Below the pieces are notes generated by a model that ran no database searches, had not been told where the DNA came from, and saw only the letters and a list, made by a program, of their open reading frames with translations. The position numbers were made by a program, and so were the translations under genes. Shown here in pieces: positions 28,939 through 54,068 of a stretch of DNA of 64,000 nucleotides. Source of the stretch: Scytonematopsis contorta HA4267-MV1 (GTDB lineage Bacteria; Cyanobacteriota; Cyanobacteriia; Cyanobacteriales; Nostocaceae); NCBI GenBank assembly GCA_019359035.1, contig JAHHIC010000053.1:1-64000 (forward strand), read 5' to 3'. Within the stretch, counting starts at the first letter, position 1, and every line of letters starts with the position of its first letter.

Positions 28939-28941
28939 CTA
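28866..28941. repeat. ACGCGATAAATC tandem repeat and hairpin after pebB
   Basis: Four copies of GA(C/G)(G/A)CGATAAATC followed by the reverse complement GATTTATCGCGTCTCTACCG. The stem between the last direct and the inverted copy is strong. It overlaps the pebB stop codon region, so the last pebB codons lie in repeat-like sequence. Confidence 0.65.
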
Positions 28942-29691
28942 CCGATTTACTACTCCCAGAGCCATTTTCCGTTCTAGGTCGAACAAGAAACCGTGAATGT
29001 ACTCCTCCGTCCACTCTTCACCGTAAAAACGACGAAACATTCCTCGTGCAGGGTCTTTTTCTGCTCGATAACGTAGGTAACGAAGTTGCGCTGCTTGAAT
29101 TTCTGCTAAGTGCTGGGGGTCTGTAATAGGCTGTGTTTGCTCGACAAAATCTAAATAAGCCTTCAAATAATCCTTAAAGGCTTCAAATACATGAGTTTGA
29201 ACTACGGATGTTTCTTGGGGACGAGTCCACAAAAAGGCTGGAGAAAAAAACGGTCGCGCTTCTTCAGGAAAATCTCCTCCCCAAGGTAGATGTTGTTGGT
29301 GCGATTGAAAAATTGGAAGTATGGGTTGGGTATATTTTGCCTGATATTCTGAATCATCTCGGAATAAAGGCTGCATATCCAAGGCAATTAAATGTCCTCC
29401 TGGTAAAGTTACTAAGTCCGCTCCAAAAAATGGCAAGTCATAGTTAAGCTGAGGAAAAATAACAAAATTTAGGACTTGTAAAGATTTTCCACCTTGGACA
29501 TGAGCAGCACGAATTTGACGTAATTTTTCGGTAGCAAATCCATGACTAGTTGTAACAATTGTTTCTTCGTTTTTCCCTTTACCCACTACTGCTGATTTAG
29601 ATTCAAATCCTTCAGGAATGGGATAAGGCATTAGTTCTAACCGCGAATTCATGTAAGAAATCGCGTAGTCAAGAAATGGCTGGTAGAGCAT
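28939..29691 (-). CDS. pebB: Phycoerythrobilin:ferredoxin oxidoreductase
   Basis: A 250-residue ferredoxin-dependent bilin reductase. Motifs that fit PebB are [50 protein letters not shown] and the C-terminal [20 protein letters not shown]. PebB reduces 15,16-dihydrobiliverdin, passed from PebA, to phycoerythrobilin. It follows pebA by 9 bases, so the pair is translated together and the intermediate can be channelled. Its presence shows that this strain makes phycoerythrin, in line with the cpe genes at 52-59 kb. Confidence 0.95.
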
Positions 29692-29700
29692 GGAATTTAA

Positions 29701-30426
29701 TCACTTTGCGACTGCTAAGGGAACTGCGTCTTCAAAGAGAAATTCATACAGAAATTTTTCTGACCACTCATGACCAAAATAACTGCTAAATAAGCCAGAT
29801 GCTGGGTCGCGTTCTGCACTGTATTGGTCGTAGTCTTTTTGTGCTTTCACAATTCGCTGAATATCTTCTGGGTCAGTCAAAGGTTGTGCTTGTTGTAACA
29901 TTTGCCAATACAGGTTCAAGTAGTCTTGATAAGCTTCATACAGCCTTGTGGAAACTGTATGAGGGTCGGTTTTAGCGAATAATAGATACTTGGAAAAATA
30001 CTGATTGGCATCGTAAAATTTCATCTCTAATCCCTGTGCCAAATCGGGATAGTTATCGTGTAAAAATTTTAGCGGTTCTATGTATTTTTGTTGGTATTTT
30101 TCATCCGGGAATAGGGGTTGAAAGTCCAAAACAACCAGGTTTTTTACTTTCCCAAAAGATAAAAAGTCTATTCCTAACAGTGGTAAATCATAGTGATAGC
30201 TGGGGTAAATCACGCTGTTAAAAATTTGGGCACCTTCCCCAGCGTCGATGTAGGTATAACGAATTTTTCTTAACTCTGGACATTGGTAGCACCAACTGCG
30301 AATTGTTGCTGGATTTCTACCGCGTTCGCTGACTTTTAACTCCAAGCCAGAGGGAATGGGACGAGGTTGTAAACTAAAGCGCTTAAATAGCTCTTTTTCC
30401 AAAAATTCCAAAAATGGCTTGTACAT
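29701..30426 (-). CDS. pebA: 15,16-dihydrobiliverdin:ferredoxin oxidoreductase
   Basis: A 241-residue bilin reductase matching PebA: QIFNSVIYPSYHYDLPLLGIDFL, VVLDFQPLFPD, YDANQYFSKYLLFA and YSAERDPASGLFSSYFGHEWSEKFLYEFLF. PebA performs the first two-electron reduction of biliverdin IX-alpha at C15-C16. I chose the start MYKPFLEF at 30426, as the 26 residues upstream in the same frame do not resemble the family. It is the first gene of the pebAB operon, and is separated by STRR sequence from the lyase gene further upstream on the same strand. Confidence 0.95.
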   Translation of the reverse strand: MYKPFLEFLEKELFKRFSLQPRPIPSGLELKVSERGRNPATIRSWCYQCPELRKIRYTYIDAGEGAQIFNSVIYPSYHYDLPLLGIDFLSFGKVKNLVVLDFQPLFPDEKYQQKYIEPLKFLHDNYPDLAQGLEMKFYDANQYFSKYLLFAKTDPHTVSTRLYEAYQDYLNLYWQMLQQAQPLTDPEDIQRIVKAQKDYDQYSAERDPASGLFSSYFGHEWSEKFLYEFLFEDAVPLAVAK

Positions 30427-30520
30427 AGAGCATGATTTATTAATCCTTATGCTGAAAATAAGGGATTCAAAGGATGCAAGTCCCACCTTTGTTAAACAAA
30501 GCAATATTCTGTAACATTTG

Positions 30521-30673: not shown

Positions 30674-31234
30674 TTAACTTCTGGCTAGGTTTTTTTGAAT
30701 CATTTGTTCTAATGTTTGCTCTGTGACGCAACGTCTTTCTGAACAATAGGTCATGAGGTTTATTCCGTTCATCATCCGGACGCTGCTTACTCTAACGCGA
30801 AAATCATCGGTGACGAACCAGCACCTTTCTTGTCCTTGGTTGTTGTCGTAGTCGGTGTCAATTGTTAGTACACCATCATCTGCAAAATTGTAGCGGCTAA
30901 CTACTGGTATGCTTTCAACGTAGCCTTGATTTCGCAGCAGCTTTCCGGTTTTTCCTGTTTCGTCGGGTATGTCAACTAATATTGCTGCGTTTGCGTTTGA
31001 TAATTCTCTTGTGTCTAAGTTTACTTGCCACGAAAAGCTTGCACCCCCTGTTGCGCTGTTGGGGTCTATCCCTTGAGCTTCACATACTTCTTTGACTTTG
31101 GGGTCGTCTTTTTCCAATATTTCTATGGTTATATTGGATTCTCCTGATTCGTCGGCTACTAAGTCAAAATGATGGACTGCTCTTTGGGTAAACCAGGTTC
31201 CTTCGCTTTTACGAAAGAATTCCATCATTGTCAT
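30674..31234 (-). CDS. CpcS/CpeS-family phycobiliprotein chromophore lyase
   Basis: A 186-residue lipocalin-fold lyase. It begins [24 protein letters not shown], the EFF..S.G.W..QR..HH pattern of the family, followed by [38 protein letters not shown] and [21 protein letters not shown]. These proteins carry a bilin and attach it to the Cys84-equivalent of phycobiliproteins. Among the four related genes here this is the most canonical, so it may be the broad-specificity Cys84 lyase. The frame also allows ATG 31252, but 31234 fits the family start better. It is divergent from the pentapeptide gene at 31385. Confidence 0.87.
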
Positions 31235-31384
31235 TGGTTTGATTATATGCATGATTTTTTTAACCTTACTTTTATAAATAGCCTTTTTTCAATATGGACA
31301 GGCTGGAAGCCTATCCCACAAAAAGAATTATAGAAATGGCTTATAAAGGTAGAATACTTTAAAGGCAGTTTTTTAATCAACTTA

Positions 31385-32179
31385 ATGTTATCCAGCAATA
31401 TTAAACAAACTTTAGTAGACCTTCGTGAACGCACCCTAGGTCAGATGGATTTGTATAAATTCAATTTACAAAACGTCAGTTTAGAGAATGAAAATCTTTG
31501 TAGTGCTAATCTTATTGGAACTGACCTGAGTCATGCAGTGTTAATTAATGCTGACCTAAGTGGTGCTGACCTACGAGGTGCTAATTTAAGTGGTGCTGAT
31601 TTAAGTGGTGCTAATTTGCAGGGAGCTTATTTACACAGAGCTAATTTGGAAGGAGCTAATTTAACTGGGGCTATTTTAGACGGAGCAAAGTTTCAATTGG
31701 CTCGGTATAACAGTCAAACAGTATGGGCTGAAGGATTTAATTACAGGTCTTGTGGTGCTATTGGTCCTAAAGCTAGTCTCAATGGAACTTTTTTGTGTAC
31801 AGCAAATCTACGTGATGCAGATTTGCAAGGGGTTAGTTTACTTGGAGCTTATTTGAGTGGTGCTGATTTGACGGGAGCAAATTTAAAAGGTGCTGCTATT
31901 AGTGGTGCTGACTTGCAAAAAGCTTTTTTGACGGGGGCTTTTTTAAGAGATGCTCGCTTAACGGGAGCTAATTTGAGTGGTGTCGATTTACGTGCTGCTG
32001 ATTTGAGTGGTGCGACTTTGGAAAATTTAGCTAGTATTGCTGGGGCTGATTTTTCTCTGGTTCAAGGTTTGAGTGACAACACTAGAAGCTCCCTTTTGAG
32101 TCGTCCTTTTGCGGAACTTGATGTTTGGAATTCTTATACACGTCGTACAACTAGGGAGAGTTTGGCTTTTAATGGGTAA
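31385..32179 (+). CDS. Pentapeptide-repeat protein
   Basis: A 264-residue protein. After a 25-residue start (MLSSNIKQTLVDLRERTLGQ) there are two blocks of A(D/N)LXX repeats (about 35-105 and 140-225), strongly regular (GADLRGANLSGADLSGANLQGA), split by LARYNSQTVWAEGFNYRSCG. The tail is non-repetitive. It probably forms a right-handed beta-helix; role unknown. Unlike the pair at 15-18 kb the repeats are near-consensus. Its stop codon TAA lies in the first unit of a GGGTAAT heptamer repeat. Confidence 0.85.
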   Translation: MLSSNIKQTLVDLRERTLGQMDLYKFNLQNVSLENENLCSANLIGTDLSHAVLINADLSGADLRGANLSGADLSGANLQGAYLHRANLEGANLTGAILDGAKFQLARYNSQTVWAEGFNYRSCGAIGPKASLNGTFLCTANLRDADLQGVSLLGAYLSGADLTGANLKGAAISGADLQKAFLTGAFLRDARLTGANLSGVDLRAADLSGATLENLASIAGADFSLVQGLSDNTRSSLLSRPFAELDVWNSYTRRTTRESLAFNG

Positions 32180-32418
32180 TGGGTAATGGGTAATGGGTAA
32201 TGGGTAATAGGTAATGGGTAGTGGGTAATGGGTAATGGGTAATGGGTAATGGATAATGGGTGATTAGTGTAAATAATTTTACTTATCTCTATGGCGTACA
32301 TCTACCTGTAGAGACGTTACATGTAACGTCTCTACATTTTTGTCCATGTAACCAATTACCAATTACCAATTCCCAATTACCAATTACCAATTCCCAATTA
32401 CCAATTACCCATTACCTA
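32172..32418. repeat. Two opposed STRR blocks with a palindrome between
   Basis: 32172-32265 is about 13 tandem GGGTAAT heptamers; 32345-32418 is about ten ACCAATT/CCCAATT heptamers in the opposite sense. Between them at 32308-32335 sits a perfect copy of the 28-base GTAGAGACGTTACA palindrome. The whole block separates two convergent genes whose stop codons lie inside the repeats. Confidence 0.88.
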
Positions 32419-32950
32419 TTCTCTTTTCCAAATACTGACCAATCATTATTTCTTCACCTGCACGTGAAATAATACTTTGTCTTGTGCGGTAGTTGGAACC
32501 AATTAATTTTATTTCTTCTTCAAATACTGAACCGCTATACTCGGTTCTTAATTGCATGGTTTTGGGGTCAGCAAACGAACACACAGCTGTCACTGGTTTT
32601 GTTGTCGCAAAACCTCGGTCACGATAAAGAATTTCTCCACAAACGCCAAATACTGTTGAACCAGTTGTGGGTTTGCGTCCTGGCTGAGTATAATTACTTT
32701 CCCATGTAATTTTGCTACCACAACTTAATATTGTCTCGTCTGTCAGTTCGTGTAATTCGGCTAATTCGATTAACTCTGGATTATTTTTATCTAAAAATCT
32801 GACTGTAATAAAGCTTACGACTTCTTCCACTGCACCACTTTTAAGCGTATAGTAACGACGCTCTGAACGCCAATCTCCTTCTGTCTGTTGGAAAAAGTCT
32901 TGTGCTAGGTAGTCAATTGATAACTGAGCAATTTGTATAGGCAATGTCAT
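32405..32950 (-). CDS. CpcS/CpeS-family lyase, CpcU/CpeU-like
   Basis: A 181-residue member of the same lipocalin-fold lyase family: AQDFFQQTEGDWRSERRYYTLKSGAVEEVVSFITVRFLD, ELTDETILSCGSKITWESNY, GSTVFGVCGEILYRDRGFAT and LRTEYSGSVFEEEIKLIGSNYRTRQSIIS. It lacks the HH after the QR-like motif and resembles CpcU or CpeU, which act as partners of CpcS or as specialised lyases. Start 32950 has GAGGAGG 10 bases upstream. The last codons (RIGNG and stop) are encoded by the STRR that follows. Confidence 0.8.
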   Translation of the reverse strand: MTLPIQIAQLSIDYLAQDFFQQTEGDWRSERRYYTLKSGAVEEVVSFITVRFLDKNNPELIELAELHELTDETILSCGSKITWESNYTQPGRKPTTGSTVFGVCGEILYRDRGFATTKPVTAVCSFADPKTMQLRTEYSGSVFEEEIKLIGSNYRTRQSIISRAGEEIMIGQYLEKRIGNG

Positions 32951-33139
32951 AAAGTAAAAACCTCCTCTCAAGGGGCGAATCCATAAATCGATATTTGAGT
33001 CAAGCTATAGCCAAATGTGTTAAATTATCTTAACATTAAAAGATGTTAAGAACCCTATCTTTTTCTCAGGGAAGGCTATAGCTTTTTATATGGGATTGGC
33101 AATCTATGTGAGTCCAGATACGAGCCAAATAGTCTAGGC

Positions 33140-35383: not shown

Positions 35384-36046
35384 TTATTTAGGTAATAAAT
35401 CTTCCAACGCAGCAGCAATAACGCGATGATTTTCGTCCTGTCTAAGTTTAATTAAAGCTTCTTTTGCTTGCGGTTCATTAAAGCGTTTCAAAGCATAAAC
35501 TACTCGCACTCTAATTCGTGGAGATTCATTATCCACAAGTGCTAAAAGTTGAGATAATGTTTTTTCATGTTGACTAGAATTAGCTAAAGTCGCAAGAGCA
35601 TCAATAGCAGATTCTTGGGTTGTTAAATCTGTATCTTTCAGCGATTCAACGCAGACATTAAAGACCTCTTCCGGACATTCCATTTCCATTAAAGCCGCTA
35701 AAATACTGCGTCGTACTAACCAATGGTCATCTTTATGAAATGATTTAACAAGATGAGAAACAGCGACTTGACCAAACAGAGACAAAGAATTTGCAGCTTC
35801 CGCACGTACATTTGGGGTATCGTCAAACTGCATCATTTCCATTAAAGTCGCGAAAGATTCAGGAGACTTTTGCTTACCCAGACCCATAGCTACAAACGAG
35901 CGTACTAAAAACTCTCCGTCCTTGAGTTTGCTTCTGAGTAGAGGGACAGCAATTTCTGAGTCATAATTTTTAAGAGCAGCAACCGCCTTAAGTCGGTACT
36001 GAAAATCCGGATTTTTCAGATTTTCTTCAATTTGAGCCAGTTCCAT
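35384..36046 (-). CDS. HEAT-repeat protein (CpcE/NblB-like)
   Basis: A 220-residue all-helical protein made of about six HEAT/PBS-lyase-type repeats: RLKAVAALKNYDSEIAVPLLRSKL, LVRSFVAMGLGKQKSPESFATLM, VRAEAANSLSLFGQVAVSHL, LVRRSILAALMEMECPEEVF and VRVVYALKRFNEPQAKEAL. This family includes chromophore lyases (CpcE/F, CpeY/Z) and NblB, but also proteins of unknown function, and a conserved cyanobacterial HEAT protein of this type exists. It is divergent from the phycobiliprotein-like gene at 36198, with 150 bases between starts, which suggests a link to pigment handling. Confidence 0.75.
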   Translation of the reverse strand: MELAQIEENLKNPDFQYRLKAVAALKNYDSEIAVPLLRSKLKDGEFLVRSFVAMGLGKQKSPESFATLMEMMQFDDTPNVRAEAANSLSLFGQVAVSHLVKSFHKDDHWLVRRSILAALMEMECPEEVFNVCVESLKDTDLTTQESAIDALATLANSSQHEKTLSQLLALVDNESPRIRVRVVYALKRFNEPQAKEALIKLRQDENHRVIAAALEDLLPK

Positions 36047-36197
36047 GCAATCCCCCTACTGTTTTATTACTTCTTTCCTCTTCTTTCTTCCTTAATTTTT
36101 TAACGTGTTATGTTAAAAAATGTATCAGAAATCTTAGAATTTATCATAACCCATCCTGTAGTCTTACGGATTAATATACTTTAATAACCAACAAGCA

Positions 36198-36776
36198 ATG
36201 ATTCAACTAAGCGAAAAAGTCAAAGAACTAATAGCAAAAGCTAGAATAGTCAGCTTTGCACAATGGACAAGTAGCTACCCACAAGCTGTGATTGATATTT
36301 TTCAAGCAGCAGACGATGAGGGTCGCTATCTGACAGACGAAGATTTACAGCAAATTCAATCGCTAGCACCGACCACAGGAGAGTTTATTCTCGTTGTAAA
36401 ATTCTTACGCGACAATGTAAAAGAAATAGTAGACGAGGCTAGACAGCAGGTACTAACAACTTTTCCAGATATATTAAACCCAGGAGGAGGGTTGTATCCC
36501 CCAGAACGTGCAGCAGCTTGCTGGCGAGATTTTTGGCATTTTTTACGTTGTATCACCTATGGAATCGCAGGCCACCATACTGAATACACAAGTTCCACAG
36601 GACTGGAATATATGAAACAACTTTACCAAGAGTTACAAGTTCCTTTAGACGCAATGATTGTAGGTTTAAAAGGTATAAAAATAGCAAGCCTAAAACGTTG
36701 CGAACCAAGTCAGCAAGAGCTTCTAGATGCATACTTTGACCACTTAGTCAACAAAATGTCATCCTTTCAGAATTAG
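36198..36776 (+). CDS. Divergent phycobiliprotein-like protein
   Basis: A 192-residue protein with the phycobilisome (globin-like) fold. PERAAACWRDFWHFLRCITYGIAG aligns with [21 protein letters not shown] of CpcB: Cys108 takes the place of the chromophore Cys82/84 and Asp111 that of Asp87. The later TSSTGLEYMKQLYQELQVPLDAMIVGLKGIK matches [23 protein letters not shown]. The N-terminal helices are unlike any alpha or beta subunit, and the Trp-rich helix around the Cys is unusual. It is not CpcA/B, ApcA/B/D/F or CpeA/B. It may bind a bilin and act as a sensor, chaperone or storage protein. The genes that follow are an ankyrin protein and a lyase-like protein. Confidence 0.75.
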   Translation: MIQLSEKVKELIAKARIVSFAQWTSSYPQAVIDIFQAADDEGRYLTDEDLQQIQSLAPTTGEFILVVKFLRDNVKEIVDEARQQVLTTFPDILNPGGGLYPPERAAACWRDFWHFLRCITYGIAGHHTEYTSSTGLEYMKQLYQELQVPLDAMIVGLKGIKIASLKRCEPSQQELLDAYFDHLVNKMSSFQN

Positions 36777-36921
36777 GGAATGGGGAGTGGGGAGTGGAGA
36801 GTGGGGAGTGGGGAGTGGAGAGTGGGGAGTGGGGATTGATTGGGATGAGGGAATCAACCGTCAACCATCAACCATCAACAGTCAACAGTCAACCATCAAC
36901 AGTCAACAGTCAACCATCAAC
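36774..36921. repeat. STRR blocks GGGGAGTG and CAACAGTCAACCAT
   Basis: 36774-36835 is a GGGGAGT(G) repeat array starting at the stop codon of the phycobiliprotein-like gene; 36858-36920 is a separate array of TCAACAGTCAACCA units. A frame from 36787 runs through both into the ankyrin gene, but it encodes low-complexity sequence and I do not count it as coding. Confidence 0.82.
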
Positions 36922-36927
36922 AAAAAA

Positions 36928-37617
36928 ATGACAACTGACTTAAACGAAAAACTAATGTTAGCCGTCATCCGAGGGGATGCTTATTCAGTGCAAGACTTTT
37001 TGATTCATGGTGCGGATGTAAATACCTTGGGTAAAGGCGATACCACTCCTTTAATGATGGCAGCTTCTGAAGGGTATTTGGAAATTGTCAATATACTCTT
37101 AGCCCGTGGTGCAGAAGTAAATACCAAAAATGTAACAGGTTATACTGCTTTGATGTATGCTGTGGAAGGACTTAAACCAGATATAGGTACTGCAATACTC
37201 GAAAAAGGTGCGGATATTGGGGGTATAAATAATTATGGTGAGACAGTATTAATGTCCGCGTCTCGCAAAGGCTATACGGAGTTGGTGAAAAAATTAATAG
37301 AACTAGGTGCGGACGTAAACGCTAAGAATAATATAGGTGATAGAGCCTTGTATTTTGCCGCAGAAAACGGTCATACCGAAACTGTACAAATATTGATTGA
37401 AAATGGTGCGGATGTAAATGCAGCAAATATTGGTGGTTGGACGGCTTTAATGATGGCCGCTGCACAAGCTTATGGAGCTGCTGTAGCTGTTTTGCTAGAA
37501 AATGGTGCTGATGTCCACGCTAAAAATAAGTGGGGGGGGACAGCTTTAAAGGAAGCTAGAAAAACTGTCTCACCTGCCACCGTACAATTATTAATAAGGG
37601 CTGGAGCTATAGAGTAA
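36928..37617 (+). CDS. Ankyrin-repeat protein
   Basis: A 229-residue protein of about six ankyrin repeats: GDTTPLMMAASEGYLEIVNILLARGAEVN, GYTALMYAVEG, GETVLMSASRKGYTELVKKLIELGADVN, GDRALYFAAENGHTETVQILIENGADVN and GWTALMMAAAQAYGAAVAVLLENGADVH. There is no signal peptide or membrane segment, so it should be a soluble protein-binding scaffold. I start it at ATG 36928 (MTTDLNEKLML), because upstream codons lie in tandem repeats. It sits between the phycobiliprotein-like and lyase-like genes, all on the plus strand, and may bind one of them. Confidence 0.85.
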   Translation: MTTDLNEKLMLAVIRGDAYSVQDFLIHGADVNTLGKGDTTPLMMAASEGYLEIVNILLARGAEVNTKNVTGYTALMYAVEGLKPDIGTAILEKGADIGGINNYGETVLMSASRKGYTELVKKLIELGADVNAKNNIGDRALYFAAENGHTETVQILIENGADVNAANIGGWTALMMAAAQAYGAAVAVLLENGADVHAKNKWGGTALKEARKTVSPATVQLLIRAGAIE

Positions 37618-37667
37618 TTCGCAATTCGTAATTCGCAATTCGCAATTCCCCACCATAAGGTAAAAGT

Positions 37668-38234
37668 ATGTTAATAAATGAATTTCAACAATTTTTTGAT
37701 TGTTGTGTTGGCAATTGGGCAACTGAACGGACTTACCATTATTTAACACAGCAAGAAGTCGAACGTTCACGCACAGAATTTGCTATTGAACCGTTGAGCG
37801 AAAGTCTAAAACTAAAGGTACTATCAGATAACAGTTATCCTGTACCTCCTAAAGTTCACGAGTTACCGGGATATCATCTTGGGTTCCAGACAGTCTCCGA
37901 GAAAGGGGAGAAGGTTTCCCAGGAGCTAAATATGTTGTTTGTTACCGAACAGAATGACGAAGGTGTTTTACAAGGAAAATATCTTCGTGACCGAGCTTAC
38001 GAAGAGGAAAAACCGATAGTTGCTAATTTCCGCTTCGATACTGCTAAACAAGAACTGTTAATGACAACAAATTATACTCGTGTCGTCGCAGTTGATTCTA
38101 TTACCTTAATCAACCCAGAATTACGCATTCGTAAAATTCTCACTTACCGTCGTCCTACAGAAGGAGAAGCTCTAAAAGAAGTAGTACTAGTTGGTTTTGG
38201 TGTGGAGCAAAAACAACCTCCTAATTCCAAGTAA
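37668..38234 (+). CDS. CpcS/CpeS-like chromophore lyase, divergent
   Basis: A 188-residue member of the lipocalin-fold lyase group: EFQQFFDCCVGNWATERTYHYL gives the FF...G.W..ER.YHYL start, then GYHLGFQTVSEKGEKVSQELNMLFV, GKYLRDRAYEEEKPIVANFRFD and LRIRKILTYRRPTEGEALKEVVLVGFG. It is distant from the other three copies here. Placed 50 bases behind the ankyrin gene and downstream of a divergent phycobiliprotein, it is a good candidate for a dedicated lyase or bilin carrier for that protein. AAGG lies 8 bases before ATG. Confidence 0.75.
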   Translation: MLINEFQQFFDCCVGNWATERTYHYLTQQEVERSRTEFAIEPLSESLKLKVLSDNSYPVPPKVHELPGYHLGFQTVSEKGEKVSQELNMLFVTEQNDEGVLQGKYLRDRAYEEEKPIVANFRFDTAKQELLMTTNYTRVVAVDSITLINPELRIRKILTYRRPTEGEALKEVVLVGFGVEQKQPPNSK

Positions 38235-38312: not shown

Positions 38313-38572
38313 ATACAAGTTAAATGTGGGATAACAAACATACAAGTTAAATGTGGGATAACAAACATACAAGTTAAATGTGGGATAACAAACATACAAG
38401 TTAAATGTGGGATAACAAATATACAAGTTAAATGTGGGATAACAAATATACAAGCTAAATGTGAGATAACAAATATACAAGCTAAATGTGAGATAACAAA
38501 TATACAAGCTAAAGTGAGATAACAAACATACAAGTTGAATGTGGGATAACAAACATACAAGTTAAATATCAC
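38313..38572. repeat. 27-base tandem repeat, about ten copies
   Basis: Units ATACAAGTTAAATGTGGGAT plus AACAAAC repeat at a 27-base step from 38313, with drift to AAGCTAAATGTGAGAT in later units and one short unit near 38502. Because 27 is divisible by three, both strands show long spurious frames with a 9-residue repeat. It lies between convergent genes. Confidence 0.88.
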
Positions 38573-38597: not shown

Positions 38598-39914
38598 TCA
38601 ATCAATTCTGCTTACTGATGGATTTACCGCTAACAAAATAGTAGCACCTAGCATAACGCCTCCAGCGGAAGCAAAAAGAATTGTCAGATTTAAATCAGCC
38701 AAAAAGCCAGCCAAAGCATAAGAAATAGGAGCAACACCCAAGGAACAAAGCATTCCCAAGCTCATAATCCTTCCTAACATTTCAGGTGGAGTTTGCTTTT
38801 GAATCCAGATAGTTCCAACAATATTAAAAAAGCTACTACAAAACCCCAGTATAGCGATTGTTACACTAGCTAGGATTATATTTGGTATAAAGCCAAGTAA
38901 GAATAAACCAAAGCCTTGTATACTAGCAAGAATAAGCATTAGAACCCCAAGCCTGGGAAGATGTCTCTGGAGTATTTGAGGCATCAGCGTCCCTAACAAC
39001 CCACCACCACCCCAAGCCGAATTCATTATTCCTAAAGCGATAGCACCCCCTGGAAAGCGATTACTCGCAAGTCCGGTTATGCCCACTTGTAAAGGTCCGA
39101 TGAAAAACAAATTTAACATCATTAATATTAGCAAAACAGTTCTCAAAGCTGGACTATGCCATCCGTAGTTAAGTCCTTCATTAATCGCAGCAAATATACT
39201 AGTAATTTTTTTATTTGATGTCGGTTTTTTAACAGTTGAGTCAAGAGCCTGTTTTGATTCTTCATTCAACTTTAGCTGCTCAGTCATCTCAGTATTTGGC
39301 TTCAGTCGTCCCTTCATCAGCAAAAGTGTTACGGTTGTCACAACAAAAGTAGCAGCATCAATTGCAAAGGCTGCCTGAATACCGCTAATTGCAATTACCA
39401 AACCAGCTAGAGATGGTCCAATAAGCACAATCATTTGAGAAGTTCCTTGGGTCAATGTATTACTTGCTACCAACTGTTCTGCTGTTACAAGACTAGGTAC
39501 AATTGACTTAGCGGCTGGGATAAAAAAACCTTCCACGATTCCAAAGCTGATGGCAAATATGTAAAGATGCCATAACTGCGTCGTTCCTGAGGCAACTATT
39601 GTCGCTAATGAGACCGTCAGCAAAACCCGTAAGCCGTTAGAAACAAGCATGACCAACCTGGGTGAAAATCGGTCGCTGACCACACCACCAATTAGCATCA
39701 AAACAGCACGGGGAATTGCGGCAGCCATCAGTACTGTGCCTAAGCTAACACCAGAGTTAGTTATCTGTATAGTCAACCAAGGCAATGCTATTAAGTAAAA
39801 TTGGTCACCGAAAAGGGAAACACTTTCACCAATGTACAGGAGTAAAAAGTTGCGGACTCTCAGCGGTTCCCAAAGAGACAATTGCTTTTGACCGGAAAAT
39901 TTTGATTCTCTCAT
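38598..39914 (-). CDS. MFS exporter of the isonitrile lipopeptide cluster
   Basis: A 438-residue transporter of the major facilitator superfamily with 12 predicted membrane helices in two halves joined by a hydrophilic loop (about 205-250, GRLKPNTEMTEQLKLNEESKQ). It has the cytoplasmic GGVVSDRFSPRLVML motif after helix 2. The pattern fits DHA3/EntS-type drug and siderophore exporters. I place the start at MRESKFSG (39914). It is the last gene of the minus-strand biosynthetic run, 132 bases after the acyl ligase, and is the likely exporter of the peptide product. Confidence 0.8.
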   Translation of the reverse strand: MRESKFSGQKQLSLWEPLRVRNFLLLYIGESVSLFGDQFYLIALPWLTIQITNSGVSLGTVLMAAAIPRAVLMLIGGVVSDRFSPRLVMLVSNGLRVLLTVSLATIVASGTTQLWHLYIFAISFGIVEGFFIPAAKSIVPSLVTAEQLVASNTLTQGTSQMIVLIGPSLAGLVIAISGIQAAFAIDAATFVVTTVTLLLMKGRLKPNTEMTEQLKLNEESKQALDSTVKKPTSNKKITSIFAAINEGLNYGWHSPALRTVLLILMMLNLFFIGPLQVGITGLASNRFPGGAIALGIMNSAWGGGGLLGTLMPQILQRHLPRLGVLMLILASIQGFGLFLLGFIPNIILASVTIAILGFCSSFFNIVGTIWIQKQTPPEMLGRIMSLGMLCSLGVAPISYALAGFLADLNLTILFASAGGVMLGATILLAVNPSVSRID

Positions 39915-40046
39915 AAAATTGAAGTAGCTATCTAATAGATAAATAAATTTCGGGGATTTAACAATAACCAAAACAATTGCGGAGGGCGTTTTTTATACTT
40001 TTTTCCTTTTATAGCCTTCAGCATAGATGCCCTCTGCCTTCCTTCG

Positions 40047-41627
40047 TCAATTCACCTTTCTTTGATAGCCTTGCCAATATTTTTCCCGAAGTTTACCCTT
40101 TTGCAATTTACCACTTGGTGTTCTTGGTAAGGATTCAGTAAACTCAACACTCCGAGGTAACTTGAAATCAGCTAATTTACCTCGTACAAAACTAATAATA
40201 TCTAATGCCGTTGCCTTCATTCCTGCTTTTAAAACAACAATTGCTTTAATTGCTTCTCCAAAATCTTCATCAGGAATACCAATTACTGCAACTTCGGCTA
40301 CAGATGGATGTTCATATAAAACATTTTCAACTTCTGCTGGATAAACATTTTCACCAGCATAAAGAATCATATCTTTAACGCGGTCGCAAATATAAATGTA
40401 ACCTTCTGAGTCAAAATAGCCTGCATCACCAGTGTAAATCCAGCCATTTACCAAAGTTTTTGCTGTGGCTTCCGGTAACTTCCAATAACCAATCATATTT
40501 GCTGGAGATTTGATACAAATTTCACCCACTTGACCACAAGGTACTTCTTTGCCTTTACGGTCTAAAATTGCTACCGAAACACCTTCAAAGGGTTTACCCG
40601 TTGCTTGCAATTTGCTGGAAGAGGTATGAGCATCTGCTGGTAAACACACAGCACAATTTCCCGTTTCAGTCATACCATAAATTTGCACAAAGTCACAGCC
40701 AAATGTAGCTATCGCCTTTATCAATAATGATTTAGCAATGGGTGAACCCCCATAAACAATGTGTCCCAATGATGAAAAATCTGTTTGCTTACACTCAGGT
40801 TCTGCTAACAGAACTTGAATCATTGCGGGCACCATACATATTTTAGTAATTCGATATTTTTCAATTGTCTTGAGAACTTCAATACTGTCAAAAGTTTCCA
40901 GCAAAATATTTTCAGACCCAGATACCAAACCACGAATAGCCCACCATAAACCCCCAATATGGAACATTGGTAAAACAAGCAAGCTCTTGTCTGCTTTGCT
41001 CCAATTTATCCAGTTTTTACCTTGCTTAGCCAATTCTTTGGCAATAGCAAAAAAACTGTAATGTGCAAGTTGGACACCTTTGGGTCGTCCGGTAGTACCA
41101 CTAGTATAGATTTGCACAGCTATATCATTTGGCTTAATCGCAACATCAGGTTGAGTATCGCTATATTCTTGCGACCAAGTATTATAGTTGAGATTATTCA
41201 GAAAAGGACTTTCAACTTCTTCTAAGGCAATAAAAGTTTTAATACCACCTAATTCATCTTTAATGGATTCAACCAACCCATGAAACTCATGTCCGTAAAA
41301 AAGAATTTCAACATTAGCATCTCTTAAAATATAACTTACCTCAGCAGGAGCCAAACGCCAATTAATAGGCACTAACACAGCATTAATTTTGGAACATGCA
41401 AATAATATTTCGTAACTTGAGAGTGAATCTTTAGCCAATAATGCAACCCGCGATTGAGCTTTCGCTCCTTGCGCTAAAAGTGCATTCGCAATACGATTAC
41501 TCTGCACATCTAGCTGTAAATAAGTCTGTACCTTATCCTTAAATATCAATGCCCTACTGTCTGGGAATTGCCGAGCTTGCATGCAGGACAAATCTGCTAA
41601 TGTTGAAATTTCATTGTTATATATCAT
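40047..41627 (-). CDS. Acyl-AMP ligase / acyl-CoA synthetase (ScoC/FadD10-like)
   Basis: A 526-residue ANL-superfamily adenylating enzyme. It shows the P-loop YTSGTTGRPKGVQLAH, LPMFHIGG, VYGGSPIA, YGMTETG, the hinge Asp in WIYTGDAGYFDSEGYIYICDRVKDMI, GENVYPAEVE and the catalytic Lys in PRTPSGKLQKGKL. In actinobacterial isonitrile lipopeptide clusters the ScoC/FadD10 enzyme activates a fatty acid and loads it on the stand-alone ACP. That role is inferred from the neighbours here. It lies 53 bases behind the second NRPS gene. Confidence 0.85.
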   Translation of the reverse strand: MIYNNEISTLADLSCMQARQFPDSRALIFKDKVQTYLQLDVQSNRIANALLAQGAKAQSRVALLAKDSLSSYEILFACSKINAVLVPINWRLAPAEVSYILRDANVEILFYGHEFHGLVESIKDELGGIKTFIALEEVESPFLNNLNYNTWSQEYSDTQPDVAIKPNDIAVQIYTSGTTGRPKGVQLAHYSFFAIAKELAKQGKNWINWSKADKSLLVLPMFHIGGLWWAIRGLVSGSENILLETFDSIEVLKTIEKYRITKICMVPAMIQVLLAEPECKQTDFSSLGHIVYGGSPIAKSLLIKAIATFGCDFVQIYGMTETGNCAVCLPADAHTSSSKLQATGKPFEGVSVAILDRKGKEVPCGQVGEICIKSPANMIGYWKLPEATAKTLVNGWIYTGDAGYFDSEGYIYICDRVKDMILYAGENVYPAEVENVLYEHPSVAEVAVIGIPDEDFGEAIKAIVVLKAGMKATALDIISFVRGKLADFKLPRSVEFTESLPRTPSGKLQKGKLREKYWQGYQRKVN

Positions 41628-41679
41628 AATAATTCTCCAAATAACTTAATTACAATTCGCATTTAATTAATTTAATTAG

Positions 41680-44600
41680 TTAATTAATTGCGAATTGCGA
41701 ATTGCGAATTGCGAATTGTAATCGCTGGGCAACAGCCTTAACATACGGAGGACGGACTAAAGTATAGTGGTTGCCATCTAAAATGGATGCGTCGCTTGTA
41801 CTTTTTGTGTATTTACTCCAGTCGGGAATAGGCAGCAGTCCAGCTTCGAGTCCCTCTTTTGCCCAAAAAACATGGAGTTTAGCTTGAATCTGTTCTGGAT
41901 GGTAACCTTTGAGTAGTTGCTCGTGAGTGATATTGAGAGCCACTTGTTTTTGCAGGCTATCGAAGCAAATATCGGTCGAGAGTAAATTTCTTTCTTGTCC
42001 CCAGACCATCATCCGATGCAGGCTTTCAAAATAAGACAAACCTATCAACTCATTTTGCAGTACTCGCTTTTCATCTGGGTGCAGAGCCTTTAAATCATCA
42101 GCAAAAGCAGTGCTAAACCTTCTTGCCAGTTCTAACAAAGGGTCGCTCCAAGTGGGGGCATTTTCTGGAATTAGAAACGCATCCAGCAGTACAACAAAAG
42201 CGACATCAAGCCCTTGTTTTTCTAGCTGCTTTGCAACACTTACTGCAATTGCCCCTCCCATAGACCAACCCATGAGACAATAAGGACCGTTGGGTTGATG
42301 TTTTTGAATAGCGTTGGCATATTCTGTAGCCATGCTATCAATACTTTTATGCTCGGTAGTCGCGTCTTCCAGAGCGCGAGACTGTAAACCGTAAACTGGT
42401 TGGTTTTTTCCGAGACAAGTCGCTAAATCCTTATACATCATAGCCTGTCCCCCTGCTCCGTGAATACAAAACAGAGCGGGCTGATTTCCCTCAACTTGAA
42501 TAGGAACTAAACATGGATTTGTTGCTGAATAATTAGCATTTTTTGTGACTAAAGTTGCTAGCTCTACTATGGTTGGATGCTGGAAAAGTGTACTTATGGG
42601 TATGTCTTTTTCAAGTTTTTGATTAATTTGTGAAATCAGTTGAACTGCCAATAAAGAGTGTCCACCCAATTCAAAGAAATTGCTGTGAACTCCTGCCTGT
42701 TCCAGTCCCAGAACTTCAGCCCAAATATCTGCAAGCATTTCCTCCACAGAAGTACGAGGTAATACTAAATTACTTTCCAACTCAGAATGTGCTACTTCCA
42801 TTGTGGAAAGAGCCTTACGGTCAACCTTACCGTTTGGGGTCAAAGGTAGAAATTCCAGCATCACAAAGGCAGAAGGAAGCATATACTCGGCTAAGCTTTC
42901 CTTGAGGAAACTACGCAGTTTACTAGTAGTAATGCGCTCTTGGTTATAAACATGGTTGGGAACAATGTAAGCTACTAATCGTTTACCACCGGGTTGGTCT
43001 TCCTTAACAACAACCACTGCTTCCCGCACATCTGTGTGTAAACTTAAAGCGGCCTCAATTTCTCCCAACTCAATACGGAAACCGCGAATTTTGACTTGTT
43101 GGTCAATCCGACCGAGAAAATCGATATTACCATCAGGCAAATAACGAACTAAATCCCCAGTCTTGTACAATTTTGTAGACCTCTGGTCTTCCTGCAGGGC
43201 ATTGTCAAAGGGATTGGGGATAAATTTTTCTAAGGTTAATTCGGGACGATTTAGATATCCCTTGGCTAAACCAGCACCACCAATGTGTAGTTCCCCAGGA
43301 ACACCTATAGGAACAGGTTGGAGATAGGGGTCTAATATATAGAGTTGGATGTTGTCAATTGGACGACCTATTGGTAGCTGAGATGTACTATTAGTGCAAA
43401 CAGCCGTAGTCGCACAAACAGTTGATTCTGTTGGTCCATAGCCATTAATAAAACGTCGTCCCTTAGACCATTGCGCTACTAAATCGGGAGGACAGGCTTC
43501 TCCAGCTACAATAATTGTACGCAAATCAGGGAATTCAGCATTAGGCATCGCAGCTAGTGCTGAGGGAGGAAGGGTTACGTGAGTAATACCAAGATTTTGT
43601 AATAACTGCGTTAAACCTGCTCCTGGAAGCAAAGATTCTCGCGTTCCTAAACAGAGTCTTGCTCCGACACAAAGAGTCATCACAACTTCCGAAATTGATG
43701 CATCAAAGCTAAAAGAGGCAAATTGCAAAACACGGCTATCGGGATGAACATCGAAGACTTTAATTTGTGCTAAAGCGAGGTTGCACAATCCGGAGTGAGC
43801 TACCAAAACACCCTTTGGTTTACCTGTAGACCCGGAGGTATAAATCATGTAAGCTAAATTCTCAGGTTGTACATCACTATTTACATTAATGTAGCTTTCT
43901 TGAGAAATTACTCCCCAGTCTGCATCCAGAGAAACAATACGCGCTGCACATTCAGGTAAATTTGCTACCAACTTTTGTTGAGTCAACAACACCGGAACTT
44001 GTGAATCAGACAACATAAAGCTTAATCTGTCTTCGGGATATGCTGGGTCTAAAGGTACATATGCACCACCAGCTTTAAAAATTCCCAAAAGTCCTATTAT
44101 CATTTCTAAGGAACGCTCGACGCAAATACCCACCATTACCTCGGGTTTTACACCCAAAGTTTGCAAATAGCGAGCTAATTGATTAGCGCGATTATTCAAT
44201 TCTCGGTAAGTTAGTTGTTGCTTTTCAAACACAACTGCAACTGCATTTGGCGTTCGTTCTACCTGTTCTTCAAACAATTGATGGATACACTTATCTTGAG
44301 GATAATCAACTTGGGTGTCGTTCCATTCAACTAGTAGTTGATGTTGTTCTGAAGGATTTAGTAATGGTAATTGTCCTATTCGTTGTTGGGAATTTGCAGC
44401 CACACCTTCTAGCAAGACCTGCAAATGTCCAGCCATTCTACTGATAGTAGCCGCATCAAATAAGTCCTTATTGTAAATTAATTCCCCACTCAGTCCCGCT
44501 TCTGTTTCCTCCATTTGCAAAGTTAAATCAAATTTGGCGATGACGTTCTCCATTTTTAATGGGGTCATGGTTAAATGTGGTAGTTCCAATTTACTTATTG

Positions 44601-45888
44601 GAGCATTTTGCAATACGAACATCACCTGGAACAAAGGAGTATAACTGAGGGAACGCTCTGGTTGCAGTTCTTCGACAAGTTTTTCAAAGGGCAAATCTTG
44701 GTGTTCGTAAGCTCCTAAAGTTTTTTCCCGGACTTGTTCTAGCAGTTCCAAAAAAGTTGGATTTTCTTCCAGTTGTATACGCAACACCAAAGTATTGACA
44801 AAAAAGCCAATCAGTGATTCGACGCCACTGTGATTGCGGTTGGCAATTGGAGAACCGATAACAATATCAGATTGATTGCTGTGGCGCTTAAGTAAGATGG
44901 CAAAGACTGCTAGCAGGGTCATAAACAAAGTTGTCCCCGACTTTTGACTCAAAGCTACAAGTTTCTGCGTCAATTCGGAACTCAGCTTAAACTCTACAGC
45001 GCTACCTCGGAAGGTCTGTTGTGGTGGGCGAGGTCTATCAGTGGGTAGTTCTAATAGTGATGGCGCCCCTGCTAACTGTTGCTGCCAATAGTTTAATTGA
45101 GTTTCCATGACTTCCCCACTCAGCCATTGTCGTTGCCAGTAGGCGAAATCAGCATATTGAATTAGTAACTCTGGTAAAGGGGAAGGCTCTTGCCAACAAA
45201 ATGCTTGATAAAGCGCAGATAACTCTCGGATGAATATTCCCAACGACCAGCCATCGGAAATGATATGGTGCATTACCAGTAGCAGTACGTGTTCTGATTG
45301 TTGCAACTGTAGCAGCTTTACCCGTAGCAAAGTATCCTCAGATAGGTCAAAGGGATATTGTGCTTCCTCTTTGACTAATTGTTGTACGAGCGCACACTGG
45401 TGCTTTTGTTCGATACGAAGCAGATTGACTATCGCCAGATCCATGCTTGGTACTGGGTTAATTACCTGCACTGGGGAACCATTTACCATCTTAAAAGTGG
45501 TGCGTAAAACTTCGTGGCGTCGCACTATTTCTGCAATGGCTTGCTCTAAAGCTGCTACCTGGAGAGGTCCGTTAACAAGCAGAGCTAGGGGCATATTGTA
45601 AGTGGCGCTAGGACCCTCCAGTTGGTTTAACAGCCACAGTCTTTGCTGGGCAAAGGACAGAAGAAGATTTCCATCCCGTGGGACAGGTTTAATCAGTTCA
45701 ACAGTTTTATCTGCTAAATGGCCCTGCTGCATAAACTTGAGGATTTCTGCCTTGCGAGATTTTAGCTCAACCTGTAAGTCTTGTGTCAGCTTGCCTTCAG
45801 GAGCATTACAGCGCAGGCGATCGCCTTCTACAACTATCTTGATGTCCAAACTGTAAAGGTAGGACAAAAATTCTTCAATGGTTTTCAA
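41680..45888 (-). CDS. NRPS module 2: docking-C-A-PCP-TE, predicted aromatic (Tyr-like)
   Basis: A 1402-residue single module: TubC-type docking domain (1-50), condensation domain with HHIISDG (207-213), adenylation domain (about 520-1000) with YTSGSTGKPKGV, carrier domain with GGHSLLAV (Ser near 1075) and C-terminal thioesterase with GWSMGG (Ser near 1209). Reading the specificity pocket against GrsA gives D-A-S-T-I-A-G-V-C-K, close to DASTVAAVCK listed for tyrosine, so an aromatic residue is likely. The TE makes this the last module. The start is TTG overlapping the previous stop as TTGA. The extreme C-terminus, RNSQFAIN, is encoded by a GCGAATT heptamer repeat. Confidence 0.9.
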   Translation of the reverse strand: MKTIEEFLSYLYSLDIKIVVEGDRLRCNAPEGKLTQDLQVELKSRKAEILKFMQQGHLADKTVELIKPVPRDGNLLLSFAQQRLWLLNQLEGPSATYNMPLALLVNGPLQVAALEQAIAEIVRRHEVLRTTFKMVNGSPVQVINPVPSMDLAIVNLLRIEQKHQCALVQQLVKEEAQYPFDLSEDTLLRVKLLQLQQSEHVLLLVMHHIISDGWSLGIFIRELSALYQAFCWQEPSPLPELLIQYADFAYWQRQWLSGEVMETQLNYWQQQLAGAPSLLELPTDRPRPPQQTFRGSAVEFKLSSELTQKLVALSQKSGTTLFMTLLAVFAILLKRHSNQSDIVIGSPIANRNHSGVESLIGFFVNTLVLRIQLEENPTFLELLEQVREKTLGAYEHQDLPFEKLVEELQPERSLSYTPLFQVMFVLQNAPISKLELPHLTMTPLKMENVIAKFDLTLQMEETEAGLSGELIYNKDLFDAATISRMAGHLQVLLEGVAANSQQRIGQLPLLNPSEQHQLLVEWNDTQVDYPQDKCIHQLFEEQVERTPNAVAVVFEKQQLTYRELNNRANQLARYLQTLGVKPEVMVGICVERSLEMIIGLLGIFKAGGAYVPLDPAYPEDRLSFMLSDSQVPVLLTQQKLVANLPECAARIVSLDADWGVISQESYINVNSDVQPENLAYMIYTSGSTGKPKGVLVAHSGLCNLALAQIKVFDVHPDSRVLQFASFSFDASISEVVMTLCVGARLCLGTRESLLPGAGLTQLLQNLGITHVTLPPSALAAMPNAEFPDLRTIIVAGEACPPDLVAQWSKGRRFINGYGPTESTVCATTAVCTNSTSQLPIGRPIDNIQLYILDPYLQPVPIGVPGELHIGGAGLAKGYLNRPELTLEKFIPNPFDNALQEDQRSTKLYKTGDLVRYLPDGNIDFLGRIDQQVKIRGFRIELGEIEAALSLHTDVREAVVVVKEDQPGGKRLVAYIVPNHVYNQERITTSKLRSFLKESLAEYMLPSAFVMLEFLPLTPNGKVDRKALSTMEVAHSELESNLVLPRTSVEEMLADIWAEVLGLEQAGVHSNFFELGGHSLLAVQLISQINQKLEKDIPISTLFQHPTIVELATLVTKNANYSATNPCLVPIQVEGNQPALFCIHGAGGQAMMYKDLATCLGKNQPVYGLQSRALEDATTEHKSIDSMATEYANAIQKHQPNGPYCLMGWSMGGAIAVSVAKQLEKQGLDVAFVVLLDAFLIPENAPTWSDPLLELARRFSTAFADDLKALHPDEKRVLQNELIGLSYFESLHRMMVWGQERNLLSTDICFDSLQKQVALNITHEQLLKGYHPEQIQAKLHVFWAKEGLEAGLLPIPDWSKYTKSTSDASILDGNHYTLVRPPYVKAVAQRLQFAIRNSQFAIN
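41690..41722. repeat. GCGAATT heptamers inside the NRPS 3' end
   Basis: About four GCGAATT units plus TAATTAAT-rich sequence overlap the last codons and stop of the module-2 NRPS. The encoded RNSQFAI repeat is a product of the repeat and not part of the thioesterase fold. Confidence 0.7.
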
Positions 45889-48800: not shown

Positions 48801-49307
48801 TGGTTCCTGTTCCAAATTGAATGGTTGTCGGTATGCATCGATTGCTCTTCTAGTTAACTCATCCTCATTCCAAGCCGAAGCGTCAGTTTGCTCTAAGCAG
48901 ATTTTCTGGCATTCATGAACCTCTTGAAAAAATTCTACACCTCTTTGCCCAAATGTAGTACGCAGTGTTGGATGACGAACTATCAACGTCTGTACAGCCC
49001 GTTGCAAAGCCTGAACATTTAAATCAGAGCGTATGCGTGCTGTAAAAGCAAGGTTGTAAGCCGCACTATGTGGTGTCAGCTTATACAAAAACCATAAACC
49101 TTGCTGACCGTAGGTAAGGGGATAGTATTTAGAGGTGTGAAATTCCTTTTGCAGTAACTGTAAAATTTCTGCTTTGTGCTGCTTAATTTTATTTAACAGC
49201 ATGGGATTTAATGCCTCTACTGGACCGCGATAACGCAAGCGGTCACCCTCAATCCACAATTCTATATTTTGTTGGGAGAGGTCTTCGAGAAACTCAGCTA
49301 AATTCAT
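45885..49307 (-). CDS. NRPS module 1: docking-C-A-PCP, predicted ornithine
   Basis: A 1140-residue module: TubC-type docking domain (1-50), condensation domain with HHIAVDG (190-196), adenylation domain (about 520-1000) with YTSGSTGKPKGV, and carrier domain with GGHSLLAT (Ser near 1077). The specificity pocket reads D-V-G-E-I-G-S-I-D-K, the code I recall for ornithine in gramicidin S synthetase. The upstream ACP and FcoT genes suggest that its C domain acylates ornithine with an isonitrile fatty acid. ATG 49307 overlaps the ACP stop as ATGA, with GAAGGGG upstream, showing tight translational coupling; there is no epimerase. Confidence 0.92.
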   Translation of the reverse strand: MNLAEFLEDLSQQNIELWIEGDRLRYRGPVEALNPMLLNKIKQHKAEILQLLQKEFHTSKYYPLTYGQQGLWFLYKLTPHSAAYNLAFTARIRSDLNVQALQRAVQTLIVRHPTLRTTFGQRGVEFFQEVHECQKICLEQTDASAWNEDELTRRAIDAYRQPFNLEQEPPIRANLFTRSAQDHVFLLTIHHIAVDGFSFGILLDELRLLYDSEQTGRTVSLSPIKWQYQDFVHWQREFLSSPVRDNLQNYWQKQLAGELPVLNLPTDRPRPAIQNYQGASHTFELSKELTKSLREMAKAEGATLYMTLLTAFVVLLYRYTGQEDIIVGSPTEGRSQPEFDTVVGFFVNMLALRVNIVDNPTFSALLSQVRSTVLGALAHQDYPSSLLIERLHLNRDPSLPGLFPVSFNLLKLQAMAPDYELSVLPSSKARENWGGLLLEPFVIPQQEGQNDIVLDVIESTESLFGIFKYSTDLFDASTISRMAVNFQTLLEGIVANKGQQISSLPLLNQAEQDYLLLESNNRQVNYPQGECIHQLFEKSVKNTPNAIAVEYQGQQLTYQELNVRANQLAHHLIHLGVRPEVLVGICVERSLEMIVGLLGILKAGGAYVPLDPAYPQERLADMLNDSQASVLLTQESLRDRFGEYSGCIVNLDRQWQAISQECKENLSVDVQAQNLAYIIYTSGSTGKPKGVMICHRSLVNAYYGWEQAYQLRSHTSSHLQMASFCFDVFSGDMVRSLCSGGKLVLCPKELLLMPEQLYELMQKQKVDCGEFVPVVIRNLMAYLEKTGQNLDFLKVLIVGSDSWYVEEYQQLRRLCGENTRVINSYGVSEATIDSCYFESTTFKLPSDALVPIGRPFGNVEIYILDANHELVPIGVPGELYIGGDGLALGYLNRPQLTSEKYITNPFERKSKLYKAGDLARYLPDGNIEFLGRIDNQVKIRGFRIELGEIEAVLNTHPQIEQAVVITREDVSGNKRLVAYVVSNYELLSTNQLRELLKQKLPEYMVPSAFVTLDTLPLTANGKIDRRALPAPDIENGFALQFVAPRTPTEEVIANICAEVLGLKLVGINDNFFEMGGHSLLATQVISRLREAFSIDLPLRRLFDFPTVAGLAEQIENIRFYQQQLQDIASVTLNNREEIEF

Positions 49308-49792: not shown

Positions 49793-49830
49793 TTCAGAAA
49801 ATTTTTAACCTCAGAAACAACTTTATCCCC

Positions 49831-50427: not shown

Positions 50428-50481
50428 GGTTGTGTCCTTATGTGAATTCGGTAACATTAAACAAAACAATAGCTGCAATCT

Positions 50482-53129: not shown

Positions 53130-53182
53130 ATGCAGTTAACTAAATAAGTAAATATCAAGCCAAACTTTGAGGAATAATTGCA

Positions 53183-53935: not shown

Positions 53936-53943
53936 ATCTTGAT

Positions 53944-54068
53944 TTTTAGTGCTAATAGCTAGTGGTTAATAGTTAGTAGCAATTAGTGATTAGTAGTTAG
54001 CAATCCTTCAATGAGCGATTAGTAATTAACAATTAGTAATTAGCAATTAGCCATTAGCTATTAGCAAA
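53944..54068. repeat. TTAGTAATTAGCAA STRR
   Basis: An array of heptamer-like units TTAGTAA, TTAGCAA and TTAGCTA between cpeD and the small CpcD-domain gene, ending immediately before its ATG. A related stretch lies at 56880-56945. Confidence 0.7.

Follow-up and report, generated by a model that had tools for sequence, protein, structure and literature searches.

AplA, an allophycocyanin-like protein of a phycoerythrin gene island in Scytonematopsis contorta, and its probable place outside the phycobilisome

What does a divergent phycobiliprotein do when its gene lies beside genes for a HEAT-repeat protein, an ankyrin-repeat protein and a bilin lyase? The question is raised by a 64,000-nucleotide stretch of DNA from the cyanobacterium Scytonematopsis contorta HA4267-MV1 (GenBank assembly GCA_019359035.1, contig JAHHIC010000053.1, positions 1 to 64,000 of the forward strand; hereafter the window). 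A first-pass annotation had described these four genes as a mini-cluster in which the phycobiliprotein would be chromophorylated by its own lyase and work outside the normal rod. All four open reading frames (ORFs) proved to lie where it had placed them and to belong to the families it had named:

35384-36046, minus strand: HEAT-repeat protein of 220 residues (HEAT_2, 145 bits), divergent from aplA.
36047-36197: intergenic, the 151 bases that part HEAT from the divergent aplA, without a CcaR G-box.
36198-36776, plus strand: aplA ortholog, an allophycocyanin-like phycobiliprotein of 192 residues (PF00502, 171.3 bits), with an N-terminal extension (residues 1-28) and a bilin site (Cys108, Arg110, Asp111).
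36928-37617, plus strand: ankyrin-repeat protein of 229 residues from ATG 36928 (Ank_2, 195 bits).
37668-38234, plus strand: CpeS/CpcS-type bilin lyase paralog of 188 residues (PF09367, 110.7 bits, cut-off 23.3).

The central protein belongs to the already known AplA class, published in 2004, and its assignment as the Apl protein of a phycoerythrin island is close to certain. Its 192 residues form a single Pfam domain that scores far above the phycobiliprotein superfamily cut-off (171.3 against 22.2 bits). Six canonical subunit models of NCBIfam also match it, each below its curated cut-off (bits/cut-off: ApcA 88.9/270, ApcB 86.3/228, CpcA 29.6/269, CpcB 47.1/279, CpeA 44.8/225, CpeB 41.2/275), which sets it apart from the canonical ApcA, ApcB, CpcA, CpcB, CpeA and CpeB subunits. 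The allophycocyanins are its nearest relatives: ApcA is the top NCBIfam model, ApcD and ApcA are the top PDB chains and ApcD is the best PDB match. With ApcA and ApcD it shares ~30% identity, the globin core and the Cys/Arg/Asp bilin site; it differs from them in its extra N-terminus, in the predicted displacement of its N-terminal helices, in its low ApcA score and in lacking several residues that are near-invariant in canonical subunits. The PDB alignments start at residue 32-37 of AplA, with residue 37 pairing with chain residue 9-10, from which we infer an N-terminal extension of ~28 residues.

To see what the family keeps, we aligned its members with canonical subunits, removing duplicates, dropping canonical ORFs longer than 260 residues and trimming ORF N-termini to the query register; 160 and 93 matches became 117 and 82 rows, to which the window protein was added. 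Cys108, Arg110 and Asp111 are invariant in all 118 distinct family sequences, bearing out the earlier statement that Cys108 and Asp111 are retained, and Trp109 and Trp113, which flank the bilin cysteine, are 99% conserved. Residues 1-23 of the extension are mostly kept within the family and missing from ~89-96% of the 82 canonical sequences, and several residues near-invariant in canonical subunits are changed. These features bear on whether aplA is a relic or decaying allophycocyanin duplicate. A broken copy in one genome (G317) and a copy cut by a contig end in another (G126) would fit decay, but frames that stay open and bilin-site residues that do not vary in many families, together with orthologs 56-71% identical in 19 of 59 other genomes, make a relic barely credible.

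A maximum-likelihood tree of 52 rows, picked for spread, separates 30 Apl rows from 22 canonical ones by a branch with 100/100 support. The Apl clade includes members from two small genomes (G111 and G266) that, from their size and gene order, we take to be picocyanobacteria. In these two the aplA gene is followed directly by linker-type ORFs and then a pentapeptide gene: one locus (L172) has two such ORFs, the first a phycobilisome (PBS) linker nearest to the CpcG models, and the other (L173) has one, recognized by BLAST only.

How does this protein compare with what has been written of AplA? We take the class to be defined by an extension of ~28 residues over allophycocyanins and by substitutions at alpha-beta pairing positions. 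The founding member, AplA of Fremyella diplosiphon, was published by Montgomery et al. in 2004 (J Bacteriol 186:7420), reportedly as allophycocyanin-like, with an N-terminal extension of ~28 residues and a covalent bilin. The window protein resembles it in being allophycocyanin-like, in its ~28-residue extension, in its kept bilin residues and in the company of phycoerythrin genes. Passages of PMC2246261 and PMC8622606 confirm in outline an allophycocyanin-like class named after the F. diplosiphon protein, and in marine Synechococcus the former puts cpcGII between an upstream aplA and a downstream pentapeptide gene; this published gene order, together with a clade that has picocyanobacterial members, puts the window protein in the published class. 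Passages of PMC2246261 also describe AplA as a photoreceptor-type protein without phycobilisome association, with which the earlier proposal of work outside the normal rod agrees. Further pigment clusters with aplA appear in the sections consulted of PMC6363710 and PMC5478717, a light-regulated operon including cpeC and cpeR is described without naming aplA (PMC4424290), and the searched parts of PMC4390838 and PMC4139726 do not mention AplA. The first-pass annotation had known of no description of the four-gene set: for AplA itself one has existed since 2004, whereas for the HEAT/aplA/ankyrin neighbourhood as a set we found none in the open-licence papers searched.

We wondered whether the distribution of aplA would point to the pathway it serves. 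In the first 60 genomes, 20 (the window's own included) have a clear ortholog at E <1e-60, canonical subunits appearing from ~1e-25. Across 300 genomes of the class, aplA is present in 69 (E 1e-30 or better), CpeB scores over its cut-off in 85 and 60 have both, so that CpeB is found in 60/69 genomes with aplA vs 25/231 without; these E-value cut-offs were our own choice, and remote members below them score as absent. The same holds on a smaller scale among the 17 sampled genomes of the family to which the window belongs, where aplA occurs in 4/5 genomes with CpeB and 0/12 others. For the picocyanobacterial family (f27) we used a member's own AplA as the query and found 15/81 genomes with a match, the three weakest (G382, G402 and G403, ~102-106 bits) being borderline; all 15 are among the 55 with CpeB and none among the 26 others. 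Many of the 40 f27 genomes with CpeB and without aplA are small (1-2 Mb) and have few phycobiliprotein candidates. At the level of gene neighbourhoods, a phycoerythrin-pathway gene lies within ~10 kb of aplA in 65 of 80 named loci. The link between aplA and phycoerythrin is thus strong, yet not absolute in either direction.

The window itself repeats this pattern, since the four genes sit within a larger phycoerythrin gene island:

28939-29691, minus strand: pebB, phycoerythrobilin synthesis (NCBIfam model over cut-off).
29701-30504, minus strand: pebA, phycoerythrobilin synthesis (NCBIfam model over cut-off).
30674-31252, minus strand: CpeS-type lyase (PF09367, 209 bits).
31385-32179, plus strand: pentapeptide-repeat protein (Pfam), a recurrent island member.
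32405-32971, minus strand: second CpeS-type lyase (PF09367, 131.6 bits).
33806: GGDEF-type ORF, named by eye.
52260-56827, plus strand: linker, lyase and regulator genes (cpeC-, cpeD-, cpeS-, cpeT- and cpeR-type).
52260-53935, within these: cpeC/cpeD-type linkers, 52260 having PBS_linker_poly and CpcD domains.
54598: CpcD-domain ORF, by domain scan.
55262-56827: cpeS/cpeT/cpeR-type genes, 55262 being of the CpeS family.
58325-59617, minus strand: CpeY, a phycoerythrobilin lyase (NF058505, 743.1 bits, cut-off 600).

The pebA and pebB pair (28939-30504) scores 379.8/263 and 489.2/327 bits against its NCBIfam cut-offs. The cpeC, cpeD, cpeS, cpeT and cpeR names, among them those of 53183, 55863 and 56489, are ones that we presume from position; 56489 has no Pfam match and 55863 no NCBIfam match. 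An NRPS-type cluster (~40047-51411) parts the aplA section of the island from the cpeC section. The proposed mini-cluster therefore stands insofar as the four genes lie together, and falls insofar as they are not an isolated unit.

Is the arrangement around aplA conserved? In five loci (L191, L213, L216, L217 and L218) the 32405-type lyase directly adjoins HEAT, and aplA and then ankyrin follow; a single ORF of ~320-330 residues separates HEAT from aplA in two of these, L217 and L218. The window keeps this order, but has a GGDEF-type ORF (33806) inserted and the 37668 lyase added. Among the 80 named loci, a pentapeptide gene lies <=3 kb from aplA in 38 and is near aplA in two picocyanobacterial loci too, while a 30674-type lyase occurs in 43, in 25 of them <=3 kb from aplA.

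The most constant neighbour is the HEAT gene, whose ortholog lies <=3 kb from aplA in 60/80 loci, in the divergent arrangement within 2.5 kb in 55/80, and <=5 kb away in 41 of the 60 genomes (of 300) that have both, as measured from the best HEAT match per genome. We infer that the 151 bases between the two genes are a shared HEAT/aplA promoter region. Repeats of this kind also occur in NblB and CpcE (PMC2327270, in part), and the HEAT/PBS-lyase repeats of 35384 are common to NblB, CpeZ, CpeY and CpcE/F. It differs from these in scoring below the NblB and CpcE cut-offs (101.2 vs 300 and 26 vs 330 bits) and in giving no match to the presumed CpeZ; CpeY is a separate gene. We thus ruled out NblB, which acts in pigment breakdown (PMC10254012, passages seen), on its score, and CpeZ, whose role is chaperone-like (PMC7948978, likewise in part), because BLAST at E 1e-3 did not link 35384 to the HEAT protein beside cpeA in the same genome (L186:514-1128), which was taken as CpeZ by that position. 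In the phycoerythrin pathway the 35384 product probably serves as a chaperone- or lyase-type factor. We reject it as a partner of AplA only, as HEAT is kept in five of the seven non-f27 genomes that have CpeB and no aplA match (G163, G213, G247, G277 and G296); in the stretches of G213, G277 and G296 that were read, it is separate from the phycoerythrin genes. One of these loci (L250 of G163) has pebBA, the 30674-type lyase, the pentapeptide gene and HEAT in order with aplA gone, and so amounts to a natural deletion. The source genome also encodes a second HEAT protein (G000:C77:4204-4842, L189) that is 41% identical to 35384 and scores 90.5 of 300 bits with the NblB model.

The ankyrin gene travels with aplA less widely. 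Its listed ORF starts at GTG 36787, within tandem repeats (36776-36835 and 36853-36922); with these repeats in front, and homologs aligning from about residue 50, ATG 36928 is the likelier start. Matches at E <1e-50 occur in 19/300 genomes, 18 of them with aplA, and the two genes lie within 15 kb in 13/18 and within 1 kb in 8/18; in the named loci an ankyrin ortholog is <=3 kb from aplA in 5/80 and within the locus in 15/80. The protein is probably an adaptor found in some lineages.

We then asked whether 37668 could be the dedicated lyase that the first-pass annotation had proposed. Its PF09367 score places it in the S-type lyase family, and it shares that profile with CpcS, CpcU and CpeS; the only solved relative found is 3bdr (Ycf58, E 4.5e-9), and within its genome it stands apart from the CpcS- and CpcU-like members, to which it is ~25% identical. 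It is not CpcU, since the motifs SAGKWFS, PNLR and SEIR, given for CpcU in the part of PMC6273044 consulted, are absent by eye, whereas the same or close forms are seen in locus L061; it may be CpcV. Its family is present in 86/300 genomes, 50 without aplA and 36 with it, and is missing from 33 genomes that have aplA. Of the 36 genomes with both, two place 37668 and aplA no more than 1 kb apart and six no more than 15 kb; in the named loci such a lyase is <=3 kb from aplA in 10/80. It is also present in six examined genomes that lack a CpeB match, and in three of these there is just one other CpeS-family gene. The two genes do co-occur above expectation (36/69 vs 50/231, p 3e-6), and 37668 and CpeB do not (p 0.20; both plain Fisher tests on the 300 genomes), but on distribution and linkage we reject 37668 as the lyase of AplA alone.

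The wider idea of a dedicated three- or four-part system, with 37668 as the AplA lyase and the HEAT and ankyrin proteins as scaffolds, fares little better. The four genes lie together in the window, ankyrin and HEAT show the linkage to aplA given above, and the 37668/aplA co-occurrence and the ten close loci point the same way; yet all four genes are found at strict thresholds in only 10/300 genomes, 37668 has the scattered distribution just described and HEAT persists in the five CpeB genomes from which aplA is missing. We consider such a system very improbable. The neighbourhood is thus conserved for HEAT and less widely for ankyrin, and not for 37668, which is widespread in the absence of aplA or CpeB. 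Since CpcS puts bilin on all allophycocyanin sites (PMC6273044, same part), the bilin of AplA is probably attached by at least one general S-type lyase.

What might keep a protein with an intact bilin site out of the phycobilisome? Canonical subunits pair through their N-terminal helices. An AlphaFold2 model of AplA built with 40 family sequences (pLDDT 94.1) suggests that the difference sits in exactly these helices and that the bilin-binding globin is kept: the globin part (~residues 59-191) fits smURFP and related chains over 131 residues at 1.8-2.0 A, while the whole chain fits allophycocyanins, among the Foldseek matches listed, with a TM score of ~0.57-0.63 and a root-mean-square deviation (rmsd) of ~8-9 A. 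As a control, the genome's own ApcA, modelled likewise with 40 sequences, fitted solved ApcA at TM 0.98 and 0.7 A (Z 26.7) and remote beta subunits of ~32-42% identity at ~1.2-2.6 A; close relatives have been solved for ApcA and for no member of the AplA family, so that the two predictions are of unequal difficulty. The 50 matches listed per comparison were all phycobiliproteins, relatives, or proteins whose origin or design goes back to a bilin-binding fold. The extended N-terminus and a displaced helical hairpin would, on this model, replace the canonical pairing surface, and AplA would thereby stay out of rods and cores. This bears on another rival, the docking of AplA on phycobilisomes or phycoerythrin as an energy quencher or terminal acceptor. 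The allophycocyanin-like sequence, with ApcD as best PDB match, and the conserved tryptophans beside the bilin cysteine would speak for it; the predicted difference in pairing surface argues against it, and we regard it as improbable.

The main rival is a photosensor, in which the bilin of AplA switches with light colour and signals to control the phycoerythrin genes. AplA is cited in passages of PMC2246261 among a new class of photosensors whose function is not known, its bilin site is kept and its gene lies among light-colour response genes. Against this, AplA has no output domain in its one-domain chain, and no kinase was found among the labelled recurrent neighbours (a statement that covers labelled ORFs, the GGDEF-type ORF at 33806 being named by eye). 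Nor did we find a sign of CcaR control: the G-box CTTTNCNATTT has no site in 55 HEAT/aplA intergenic regions, those of the 80 loci where HEAT is divergent and no more than 2.5 kb away (0.35 expected), and none in the 600 bases before the 80 aplA genes (0.72 expected), a test of little power, given that the same search before cpeC found 1/41 vs 0.43 expected. We judge a photosensor rather unlikely.

The reading that we prefer, to which we give a probability of roughly 0.6, is that AplA is a bilin-binding accessory protein of the phycoerythrin pathway that stands outside the phycobilisome. It would be a single-chain allophycocyanin-like protein rather than a phycobilisome subunit, carrying one bilin on Cys108, and most likely works with the surrounding phycoerythrin biosynthesis genes as an accessory or monitoring protein in biogenesis or acclimation; for an accessory role in biogenesis specifically, we put the odds slightly below even. 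The HEAT protein would be a factor of the same pathway, with the ankyrin protein joining it as an adaptor in some lineages.

Several observations weigh against this reading. A match to aplA is missing from 25 of the 85 genomes with CpeB, 18 of them in f27, where the query is remote, and of the seven outside f27, two (G163 and G296) are 99% complete. Passages of PMC2246261 name WH7805 as a phycoerythrin strain without aplA; taken with these genomes, this means that AplA is dispensable for phycoerythrin. Conversely, nine genomes have AplA and no CpeB match: four of these have other phycoerythrin-type genes in the same stretch (CpeY-type in G126; cpeC- and cpeD-type in G141, G262 and G317), three (G070, G089 and G174) have weaker cpeT-, cpeD- or 55262-type matches at 41-47%, G174 additionally holding a 32405-type lyase, and in two (G138 and G333) no such match was found in the stretches read. 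The Fisher tests take no account of genome relatedness. Asp39 and Arg117, the equivalents of near-invariant canonical residues, are retained in AplA, which weakens the argument from lost pairing, and VIA-align 2 returned a milder structural difference than Foldseek: for allophycocyanin-type chains it fitted 139-152 residues, at 2.7-4.5 A and with Z values reaching 16.2. The agreement with F. diplosiphon AplA, from which no difference was found, is one of description only. Lastly, signalling partners may sit among the mostly unannotated, unlabelled neighbour ORFs.

Some further features of these loci and of the source genome were seen in passing. The two small genomes G070 and G089 (L174 and L175) have a remote Apl member, of 38-39% identity, that lies >1 Mb from the HEAT match, with a DarT-like ORF after the Apl gene in L174. 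A DUF2656 gene follows aplA directly in L049 (8605-9090), the only locus scanned for it, and ORFs of similar size, unlabelled, lie near that position in L039, L040, L046, L051 and L053; no mention of DUF2656 was found in the open-licence literature. In the window, a CpcG-like rod-core linker of 339 residues (57179-58198) adjoins CpeY and has a homolog in 20/80 named aplA loci. Straight after the 37668 lyase, a 27-base tandem repeat (38313-38567; 9.5 copies, 95% matches) is crossed by listed ORFs, and in the NRPS-type region (38598-51411) a domain scan identified a carrier protein and a TauD-type oxygenase, while an AMP ligase, an MFS-type ORF (38598) and, from their translations, the large adenylation ORFs were recognized by eye. 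The source genome (G000) has 16 full-length phycobiliprotein-type matches, the window included, on contigs C13, C45, C53, C62, C64, C74 and C75; C13 carries an extra allophycocyanin-like gene set that may be a far-red cluster, and C45 a second cpcBA pair.

Since 2004 AplA has counted as a phycobiliprotein without a known function, and the open-licence literature, in the parts consulted, mentions it only briefly. Our data give it a place, linked to phycoerythrin, with a recurrent HEAT neighbour and an often linked ankyrin gene, and they supply a predicted structural reason for its standing outside phycobilisomes. In the boldest reading, which we think unlikely, AplA would be a single-chain bilin globin, kept from joining phycobilisomes by its N-terminal cap and refolded helical hairpin. 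Together with the divergently encoded HEAT protein, and with the ankyrin protein where a lineage has it, AplA would monitor and tune phycoerythrin biogenesis in response to bilin or light. If true, this would be a regulatory use of the phycobiliprotein fold.

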